The notes under the pieces were generated by a model. The model searched no databases, was not told the DNA's origin, and saw only the letters and a list, made by a program, of their open reading frames with translations. 64,000 nt of DNA from Alphaproteobacteria bacterium. Lineage in GTDB: Bacteria > Pseudomonadota > Alphaproteobacteria > Micavibrionales > Micavibrionaceae. How positions within the stretch are numbered: the first letter of the stretch is position 1; each line of letters starts with the position of its first letter. The translations under genes were made by a program, and so were the position numbers. The DNA is taken from NCBI GenBank assembly GCA_030432025.1, contig JAUIIA010000007.1, forward strand, positions 1 through 64,000, in the 5' to 3' direction. This document shows positions 59,595 to 62,208 of this stretch, piece by piece.

Positions 59595-61154
59595 TTATCG
59601 CTTCTTCTTTTTCTTGCGATCTTTTTTCTTGCCACCATGTGTTGGCAAGGAACCTAAATCGGGGCCGCCAAGGCCACCTAAACCGGGTAGGCCGCCGCCC
59701 TGTGCAAACGGGTTGGGGCCAAGTGCGCCGCCGCTGCCCTGAATATCGGCCATGTCTTTGGCCAATGCGTCAGGATCCATGGATTGCGCCATCATTTCCA
59801 TTTCGTCGGCTTTGCCGCCCATCAAATCTTTCATCATGCCCATCATCTTGCCCGTGCCCATTTTGCGCATCTTCTTCATCATGGTCTGCATCTGTTTGAG
59901 CTGCTTGGCGAGCTTGTTGATGTCCTGCACGGATGTGCCTGAACCCGCGGCAATACGCTTTTTACGCTTGGCGTTCAACAGGTCGGGCTTTTCACGCTCT
60001 TCCTTGGTCATAGAAAAGATGATCGCTTCCTGACGCTTGACGAAGGAGTCATCCAGACCTGCTTCGGCGATTTTATCCTGCATACCTGACAGGCCGGGCA
60101 TCATCTTCATCATCGTGCCCATGCCGCCCATTTTGCTCATTTGCTGCATCTGGGTCAGCAGGTCGTTGTAATCGAACTGGCCTTTCTTGAATTTGGCAGC
60201 CATTTTCTGCGCGTCTTCGGCGTCGACTGTTTCCACAGCCTTTTCCACCAAAGAAACCACATCCCCCATACCCAGAATGCGGCCCGCAATACGGTCGGGG
60301 TGGAAGGTTTCGATTTCATCCCATTTTTCCCCGACACCAATCAGCTTGATCGGCTTGCCTGTAACGGCCTTCATGGACATCGCCGCACCGCCGCGTGCAT
60401 CACCGTCTACACGGGTCAGCATGATACCCGACAGGCCAACGGCCTCATCAAAGGCTGTCGCTGTTTGCACCGCGTCCTGACCGGTCATAGCGTCGGCAAC
60501 GAGCAGGGTTTCAATAGGGTTGGATGCTTTTTTGACGGCTTTAACCTCGTCCATCATCGTTTCATCGATAGACAAGCGGCCCGCCGTATCGAGCATGACA
60601 AGGTCGTAACCCTCTTTGCGGGCGGTATCGAGTGCACGTTTAGTAATATCGACGGGTTTCTGGCCTTCAACAATATCCAGTGTAGCAACGCCTGTTTGCT
60701 CACCAAGCTGGGCCAGCTGTTCTTGCGCGGCAGGGCGGTAAACGTCCAAAGAGGCCATCAGGACCTTCTTCTTCTGTTTTTCGCTCAGCATACGGGCGAT
60801 TTTCGCCGTTGATGTCGTTTTACCCGAACCTTGCAAACCCACCATGAGGTAGACGGAAGGCGGGGAAGAGAATTTAAGTTCGTCCGCTTCGGACCCCAGC
60901 ATGTTGACCAATTCGTCATGGACGATCTTGATGACTTGCTGTGCGGGGTTTACGCCGCGGATCACGTCCTGACCGACGGCTTTATCTTTAATCTGGGCGA
61001 TGAAGTCTTTAACAACGGGCAGGGCAACGTCAGCTTCAAGCAAAGCGATGCGGATTTCGCGGGAAACCGCCATCACATCGTTTTCGCTCAGAGAGCCTTT
61101 GCCTCTGAGTTTTGAAAATACGCCGCCAAGCTTTTCGCTCAAACTATCAAACAT
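59595..61154 (-). CDS. ffh: Signal recognition particle protein Ffh
   Basis: 519 residues: N domain, GTPase G domain (GLQGSGKTTSTAKIARML, LDTAGRLSIDETMM, TRVDGDARGG) and Met-rich M domain (MGGMGTMMKMMPGLSGMQDK) that binds 4.5S RNA and signal sequences. The C-terminal 50 residues are Gly/Leu-rich then end in a run of Lys/Arg (KKDRKKKKKR). Its partner FtsY begins at 63963. First gene of the leftward operon. Confidence 0.97.
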   Translation of the reverse strand: MFDSLSEKLGGVFSKLRGKGSLSENDVMAVSREIRIALLEADVALPVVKDFIAQIKDKAVGQDVIRGVNPAQQVIKIVHDELVNMLGSEADELKFSSPPSVYLMVGLQGSGKTTSTAKIARMLSEKQKKKVLMASLDVYRPAAQEQLAQLGEQTGVATLDIVEGQKPVDITKRALDTARKEGYDLVMLDTAGRLSIDETMMDEVKAVKKASNPIETLLVADAMTGQDAVQTATAFDEAVGLSGIMLTRVDGDARGGAAMSMKAVTGKPIKLIGVGEKWDEIETFHPDRIAGRILGMGDVVSLVEKAVETVDAEDAQKMAAKFKKGQFDYNDLLTQMQQMSKMGGMGTMMKMMPGLSGMQDKIAEAGLDDSFVKRQEAIIFSMTKEEREKPDLLNAKRKKRIAAGSGTSVQDINKLAKQLKQMQTMMKKMRKMGTGKMMGMMKDLMGGKADEMEMMAQSMDPDALAKDMADIQGSGGALGPNPFAQGGGLPGLGGLGGPDLGSLPTHGGKKKDRKKKKKR

Positions 61155-61331
61155 TTAAAATCCGTAGTTAATAAACTAAATTAGCCCCAGTGAGCGTTCG
61201 CGCCGACTAGGGGGTACCTGCACCTCGAAAGTGCGTGGGCACTGACAAATAGCCATGTCAGTGAAATTTGAGTGGAAACTATGCAAAACGCCCTATATTG
61301 TCAAGGACTTTAAGGAGAAGGCGAACACCGC
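61155..61331. other. Divergent ffh / dapF intergenic region with hairpins
   Basis: Contains a perfect 8-bp inverted repeat CACTGACA (61240-61247), loop of 8, TGTCAGTG (61256-61263), and a smaller hairpin GCAC-CTCGAAA-GTGC directly before it. Both lie 75-110 bp upstream of the ffh start, so they could be leader structures of ffh. AAGGAGAAG at 61313-61321 is the ribosome site of the dapF leader ORF. Confidence 0.45.
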
Positions 61332-61430
61332 ATGAAATTTAGAAAAATGCACGGGTGCAAAGCAAATCGAAGATTTGTTTGCCTCTTTAGAATAGGGCCG
61401 TGCATTTTGAGCACGGAGTTAGCAGGATAA
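61332..61430 (+). CDS. Leader ORF mimicking the start of DapF (32 codons)
   Basis: Starts ATG 61332 behind AAGGAGAAG and encodes MKFRKMHGCKANRRFVCLFR and twelve more residues, stopping at TAA 61428-61430, four bases before the dapF ATG. Its first eight residues equal the first eight of DapF, encoded by an exact 23-nt repeat. It could be a regulatory leader peptide coupling dapF translation, or the product of a local partial duplication. Expression is not proven. Confidence 0.5.
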   Translation: MKFRKMHGCKANRRFVCLFRIGPCILSTELAG

Positions 61431-61457
61431 GGCTATGAAATTTAGAAAAATGCACGG
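61332..61457 (+). repeat. 23-bp direct repeat of the dapF start with an inverted 11-mer between
   Basis: Copy 1 at 61332-61354 and copy 2 at 61435-61457 are identical (103-bp offset). CCGTGCATTTT at 61398-61408 is the exact reverse complement of the last 11 nt of both copies, so an RNA could fold on copy 1 or on copy 2. A further hairpin (GCAAA-G-CAAATC with GATTTGTTTGC, 61357-61382) lies between, and CCGTGC/GCACGG (61398-61416) forms a third. Confidence 0.75.
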
Positions 61458-62208
61458 ACTAGGCAATGACTTTGTGATTATAGATTCCCGCAAAGAATCT
61501 GTAGCCCTTACGCCTGCGCAAATTCAGCATATTTGCGACCGCAACTTTGGTGTTGGATGTGATCTGTTGACCGTGCTGGAGCCTTCGGACGATGCCGATA
61601 TATTTGCGCGCTTCTACAATGCGGATGGCTCGGAAAGCGCGGCATGCGGAAATGCGACCCGTTGCGTGGCCGACATTATCATGAATGAAACGGGTAAGGA
61701 CGAATGTATCCTCGAGACGGGCCGCGGTATGTTGCCTTGTACGCGTGCGGCCAACGATATGGTCACCGTGGATATGGGGGAACCCGTAAGCTTTGAGCAA
61801 CTGGATTTGAGCGAAGGCGGTTTGAGCGCCCCTTATGGTGTAGATATGGGTAACCCGCATTGCGTCTTTTTTGTCGAATCTCTTGGGGATATCCCTGTGG
61901 AAGACATAGGGCGTACGGTTGAGCATAACCCGATTTTCCCCAATAGAACCAACGTCGAATTTGTGGAAGTGTTCAGTGACACTAAAATGCGTCAGCGTAC
62001 ATGGGAACGCGGCGTTGGCGTGACACTGGCCTGTGGTTCGGGCGCATGCGCCGTGGCTGTAGCAGGTTTCAAAAGCGGCAAAACGGCCAATAATGTCGAA
62101 ATAGAACTCGACGGCGGTTCCTTATTCCTCGAAATCCGTGAGGACGACGGTCATGTCCTTATGACCGGTCCGTATACCTATGTTTTTGACGGTGTACTGA
62201 CACTCTAG
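61435..62208 (+). CDS. dapF: Diaminopimelate epimerase
   Basis: 257 residues. The two catalytic cysteines are in SAACGNATRC (Cys71) and LACGSGACAV (Cys200), with the MKFRKMHGLGNDFVIIDSRK start and MGNPHCVFF typical of the family. It converts LL- to meso-diaminopimelate for peptidoglycan and lysine. The ATG lies four bases after the stop of the leader ORF, with GGATAAGG as ribosome site. The order dapF, mtaB, ftsY is common in alphaproteobacteria, here with an inverted small gene inserted. Confidence 0.96.
   Translation: MKFRKMHGLGNDFVIIDSRKESVALTPAQIQHICDRNFGVGCDLLTVLEPSDDADIFARFYNADGSESAACGNATRCVADIIMNETGKDECILETGRGMLPCTRAANDMVTVDMGEPVSFEQLDLSEGGLSAPYGVDMGNPHCVFFVESLGDIPVEDIGRTVEHNPIFPNRTNVEFVEVFSDTKMRQRTWERGVGVTLACGSGACAVAVAGFKSGKTANNVEIELDGGSLFLEIREDDGHVLMTGPYTYVFDGVLTL

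Follow-up and report, generated by a model that had tools for sequence, protein, structure and literature searches.

The duplicated start of dapF

The window (the whole 64,000-nucleotide stretch of DNA analysed here) carries a gene which we take to be dapF, following the assignment made in the first-pass annotation and the known start motif of DapF. The features that surround its start, all on the plus strand except the hairpin, are as follows.

61312–61321, plus strand: Shine-Dalgarno region of the leader ORF, AAGGAGAAGG, probably the original dapF ribosome-binding site by analogy with the displaced start of a related genome (G059)
61332–61354, plus strand: upstream copy of dapF codons 1–8, first half of a 23-nt duplication (from the sequence and the same analogy)
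61332–61430, plus strand: leader ORF MKFRKMHGCKANRRFVCLFRIGPCILSTELAG, identified by ORF analysis
61357–61382, no strand assigned: 26-nt bulged hairpin GCAAAGCAAATC-GAA-GATTTGTTTGC, member of a REP-like family of dispersed palindromic repeats
61383–61434, plus strand: putative insert tail reaching from the hairpin to dapF, within which lie the antisense segment and the ribosome-binding site now serving dapF
61398–61408, plus strand: antisense segment CCGTGCATTTT, directed against dapF codons 5–8 and their upstream mimic, and kept in the related genomes G059 and G127
61424–61427, plus strand: AGGA, the likely Shine-Dalgarno sequence of the present dapF start (spacing 7 nt), adjoining the leader stop codon
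61435–61457, plus strand: dapF start now in use, the downstream member of the 23-nt duplication
61435–62208, plus strand: dapF, diaminopimelate epimerase, 257 aa (from the ORF and its relatives)

The sequence ATGAAATTTAGAAAAATGCACGG forms a perfect 23-nt direct repeat (100% identical, spacing 103), which the first-pass annotation had placed correctly to the base. Because an exact match of this length at any of ~150 offsets has a chance probability of ~2e-12, the repeat is a duplication and not a coincidence. The same annotation was also right that the upstream copy opens an ORF of 32 codons whose TAA (61428–61430) ends 4 nt before the dapF ATG at 61435, and that CCGTGCATTTT is complementary to the last 11 nt of each copy; it is their exact reverse complement, with gaps between the arms of 43 nt for one copy and 38 nt for the other. 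The AAGGAG proposed as the leader Shine-Dalgarno sequence is present (61312–61317), but at a rather long 14 nt from the leader ATG, so that AGAAGG (61316–61321, 10 nt) is the better-placed ribosome-binding motif. Two elements had been overlooked: a third GCACGG at 61411–61416, which could also pair with CCGTGC, and the 26-nt hairpin lying between the two copies.

A dispersed family of hairpins

This hairpin belongs to a family of dispersed palindromic repeats built like REP/BIME repeats. The family pattern, GCRAAGCAAANC-NNN-GNTTTGTTYGC, which the dapF hairpin fits with 0 mismatches, was matched in 13 of the 133 genomes searched (in two of these only weakly), while a reversed control pattern was matched in none. 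There are 23 copies in G036 and three in the genome of the window (G000), where a search with the dapF hairpin located the other two 3' of a tRNA-Cys gene and at position 225628 of contig C8. Across 47 distinct copies, 97.3% of stem cells are paired and compensatory changes are frequent: 48 stem cells are changed on both sides vs 14.3 in shuffles, with a covariation score of 0.266 vs 0.096. Column pair 3/24 alternates between G-C and A-U, and pair 11/17 shows all four Watson-Crick forms. Among the fetched loci, nine composites contain two hairpins in opposite orientation, spanning 62–91 nt; the two hairpins are 9–14 nt apart in eight of the nine and 37 nt apart in the remaining one (L189), and the dapF hairpin is single. 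In one genome (G006, contig C39; L146, 1–240), a family hairpin lies near a contig end between two ~80-nt sequence copies, a tandem arrangement unlike the others.

By inspection, no tetranucleotide, GTAG or CGTC included, is shared beside the hairpins. A REP transposase was considered as the mover and rejected, as the Y1 transposase profile PF01797 had no match in the draft genomes of G000 and six other hairpin-bearing members (G001, G003, G006, G015, G031 and G036). No description of the hairpin family or of a dapF leader was found in the literature searched, subscription papers lying mostly outside its reach.

Gene-end duplications at other hairpin sites

Next to each of the other two hairpins of G000, a gene end is present for a second time. 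At tRNA-Cys this additional copy comprises the final 16 nt of the gene, CCA included, and the nearest relative of the window genome (G004) carries a diverged element in the same place. At the C8 site, the end of a protein gene (VKKIFD-stop) is present twice with the hairpin between the copies. G004, with 93–95% identity to G000 there, has the gene end only once, and the two blocks of the alignment share exactly 21 nt of its sequence, which is what an unoccupied site should give. The two 21-nt copies at C8 (L119, 1440–1570) and the single G004 copy differ only at third codon positions. A further case was found in G015 (L189), where a hairpin pair inside an rRNA operon is bordered by exact 20-nt copies of the 5' end of tRNA-Ile, the functional gene adjoining the first hairpin and the repeat lying directly outside the pair. 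The order of copy, hairpin, tail and gene seen at dapF thus recurs at unrelated genes, with duplications at four kinds of locus (16, 20, 21 and 23 nt) and none detected at most others.

Several observations at these sites were counted against insertion. No flanking duplication was found at most of the 62 hairpins examined, which means that the duplications are lost with time or arise in only a part of the events. Hairpin copies away from dapF showed no antisense segment. Each duplicated block stops either exactly at a gene boundary (ATG, CCA end, stop codon, tRNA 5' end) or no more than one base away, an agreement not expected of ordinary target duplication. The C8 differences at third positions, found although the downstream copy lies after the stop codon, were counted in the same way, as was the failure of PF01797 to point to an enzyme that moves the element.

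The dapF layout in related genomes

A search of 104 family genomes for the complete layout (start copy, hairpin, antisense segment, dapF) returned three dapF cases and three unrelated matches. The search of related dapF leaders proposed in the first-pass annotation thus yields two further carriers, G059 and G127, both of another genus, but the layout was not found in the ~100 other family genomes searched, G004 and every other member of the window's own genus among them. Among 385 genomes of the class only the window matched, in a search with exact patterns that could miss degenerate forms.

In unoccupied relatives, a conserved stretch ending in GTCAAG is followed by a short spacer and then by dapF. 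The upstream copy in G059 sits at the position of the dapF start in these relatives (GTCAAGAAAAGG..ATG; GTCAAGAAAAGGTTGAAAATT-ATG), which suggests that the upstream copy is the original start and that the insertion followed codon 8. In G004, the region corresponding to 61273–61440 is replaced by ~660 bp of unrelated DNA with dapF still present, so the pre-insertion site cannot be read there, and this too was counted against insertion. The replacement (L003, 848–1506), which takes the place of the dapF promoter and leader, carries on its minus strand what may be an ORF of 101 aa.

Neither the dapF nor the ffh protein tree groups the three carriers as a clade, and at least three changes are needed to account for them. 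They may descend from one old insertion followed by many precise losses, or the site may have been entered more than once; a precise loss could easily come about by recombination between the copies and would leave no scar. A degenerate start-like copy at −32 in G118, without hairpin or antisense segment, fits either history. The mimic agrees with its own dapF start at 23 of 23 positions in both G000 and G127, even though these genomes differ from each other there, and differs from it at 6 of 23 in G059. Such complete agreement points to events of recent date, to sequence exchange between the two copies, or to selection. The last 25–26 nt before dapF show no significant similarity among the three genomes.

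Other, unrelated palindromic inserts were found upstream of dapF in several relatives (L012, L196, L199 and L205; for example, of the CGTCATTGCGAGGAAGGC...CTCGCAATAACG type in L012), and for this reason the ffh–dapF spacer appears to be a frequent landing place for such elements. The spacer also holds, at 61184–61263 of the window, a conserved and probably structured RNA upstream of ffh that is present in most family members. On the dapF strand its motif reads GCCNC..GTGAGCGTAAATTCGCCGA..GCGG.GTACC..GCACTGA..TCAGTG; RNAalifold on 20 sequences favours the ffh strand (−25.3 vs −13.6), and Rfam gave no match to it at E ≤ 1.

The leader ORF and its predicted folds

In all three carriers the leader ORF runs without a stop as far as the dapF start, ending at −4, +4 (an ATGA overlap) and +11 nt, and it encodes 34 aa in G059 and 36 aa in G127. 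The chance of such openness is 0.21–0.26 for each sequence and ~0.013 for the three jointly. The start-to-start spacings (103, 101 and 100) are not multiples of 3, so the two copies are out of frame. A scan for sigma-70 promoters and terminators found none, and there was no Rfam match at E ≤ 1 within 61100–61500.

In each of the three genomes, the pairing of the antisense segment with dapF is longer than its pairing with the mimic; the former reaches 15 contiguous pairs in G127. Predictions, which disregard co-transcriptional order and ribosomes, gave energies for the mimic-paired (open) and dapF-paired (closed) folds of −43.3 and −45.6 kcal/mol in G000, −36.0 and −38.1 kcal/mol in G059, and −37.2 and −44.8 kcal/mol in G127, where the closed fold is favoured by 7.6 kcal/mol and the open fold is assigned a probability of almost 0. 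Both of the alternative pairings put forward in the first-pass annotation can therefore form on paper, ~2.3 kcal/mol apart in the window, but the fold that closes dapF is the lower in every carrier and the balance between the two is not conserved. A balanced switch was rejected as a conserved design on these grounds, and the two-state version of the translational switch suggested in that annotation has little support. The interpretation given there is, overall, partly supported. Because the antisense segment lies inside the leader ORF, a ribosome translating the leader would open the antisense:dapF stem, and leader-coupled translation of dapF, a plausible reading, is predicted to be the likeliest present-day effect of the layout.

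Origin of the layout

The data presented above have led us to favour a model in which a REP/BIME-like element inserted into dapF after codon 8 with duplication of its target, a reading that we hold to be likely, leader coupling being its weaker part. In this model a palindromic element, consisting of the 26-nt bulged hairpin and a ~50-nt tail, would have entered the 5' end of dapF, and ~20 nt of target would have been duplicated at insertion. The upstream copy would then be the displaced original start with its original ribosome-binding site, and the downstream copy the start now used. Ribosomes may continue to use the old start and read the leader across the insert, opening the antisense:dapF stem on the way; on stopping at the new start they could reinitiate, coupling translation of dapF to that of the leader. 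We infer insertion as the cause, and the identity of the original start, from the comparisons with relatives and with other hairpin sites; initiation at the old start and coupling by reinitiation are put forward more tentatively. Insertion explains why a direct repeat and a hairpin are present, why the distribution is patchy, and why tRNA and stop-codon ends show parallel cases; a sensory switch is not needed for the explanation. Insertion alone leaves unexplained the retention of the antisense segment at all three dapF sites, the agreement of blocks with gene boundaries, and the third-position differences at C8. As these leftovers allow selection or an unusual insertion mechanism, we retain a regulatory role as a minority reading.

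A bolder version of the insertion model, which we regard as speculative and improbable as a whole, holds that the hairpins of Micavibrio-like Alphaproteobacteria are carried by a mover other than a Y1 transposase and insert at gene ends, leaving a restoring copy of ~20 nt, and that at dapF this happened, or persisted, at the same position in three lineages, giving a start-mimicking leader that controls translation.

It is doubtful, though not absurd, that the region is instead a selected regulatory leader, in which pairing of the mimic with the antisense segment opens dapF and pairing of the antisense segment with dapF closes it, the choice being governed by translation of the leader or by a factor binding to the start sequence. 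Retention of the mimic, hairpin, antisense segment and ORF end in three genomes of two genera, next to dissimilar final nucleotides, is what such a leader would be expected to show, as are the identity of mimic and start in G000 and G127 despite their divergence and the closeness of the two folds in the window. Against this stand the scarcity of the layout among the family and genus members searched, the replacement of the region in G004 with dapF retained, the mismatched mimic of G059 and the nearly absent open fold of G127. Moreover, the hairpin belongs to a dispersed repeat family, and at loci that offer no start codon to mimic (tRNA 3' and 5' ends and a stop-codon end) it is likewise flanked by copies of gene ends.

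A plain local duplication or template switch at dapF, with the hairpin arising or picked up by chance, is very unlikely: template switching can yield direct and inverted copies of the same 11–23 nt together, and the hairpin-free copy in G118 would suit a plain duplication, but the perfect fit of the hairpin to its family and the recurrence of the whole order at unrelated genes speak against it, so that the simple duplication allowed for in the first-pass annotation is real but incomplete, insertion of a repeat element going together with it.

Comparison with known systems

REPs are bulged palindromes with a covarying stem that occur dispersed and in inverted pairs (PMC3733652, PMC2817692). The present hairpins share the short bulged palindrome, covarying stem, dispersed copies and inverted pairs, and their 26 nt fall within the 20–40 nt range; they differ in that no GTAG/CGTC tag was seen and no Y1 transposase (RAYT) was matched in the seven genomes searched, and in that some copies are flanked by 16–23 nt gene-end duplications. 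REPs reported in Micavibrio aeruginosavorus carry a CGTC tag (PMC3733652); no such tag was seen beside the present hairpins.

Rickettsia palindromic elements, of 105–146 bp, insert into conserved genes for proteins and for RNAs, and within a protein gene they are translated in frame as part of the product (PMC2229807). The likeness lies in palindromic repeats of an alphaproteobacterium entering both kinds of gene; here, however, the hairpin is only 26 nt (~65 nt for a pair), the copies do not share a reading frame, and it is a second start that restores the gene.

The resemblance to MITEs is confined to the paired form, which has terminal inverted repeats (GCRAAGCAA...TTGCTTYGC), no evident coding capacity, and insertion beside genes. 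The duplications here are ~20 nt, longer than usual for MITE targets, while most copies have none and no parent transposon was found.

Like systems of translational coupling and leader-peptide attenuation, the locus has a short upstream ORF ending at the next start and a stem predicted to cover the initiation region, which a ribosome on the leader would open. The dapF leader differs in that it repeats the start of its own downstream gene, and no run of sensing codons or stalling motif was recognised in it.

Implications

The dapF repeat looks like the scar of a mobile element first, and a control switch only possibly; a start mimic can be an insertion scar. The locus points to a family of hairpins with long gene-end duplications, and suggests that a small palindromic repeat may enter a gene of core metabolism without destroying it, since the duplication rebuilds the gene. 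The leader ORF and antisense stem left behind by such an insertion would offer a one-step route by which a translational control region could arise.
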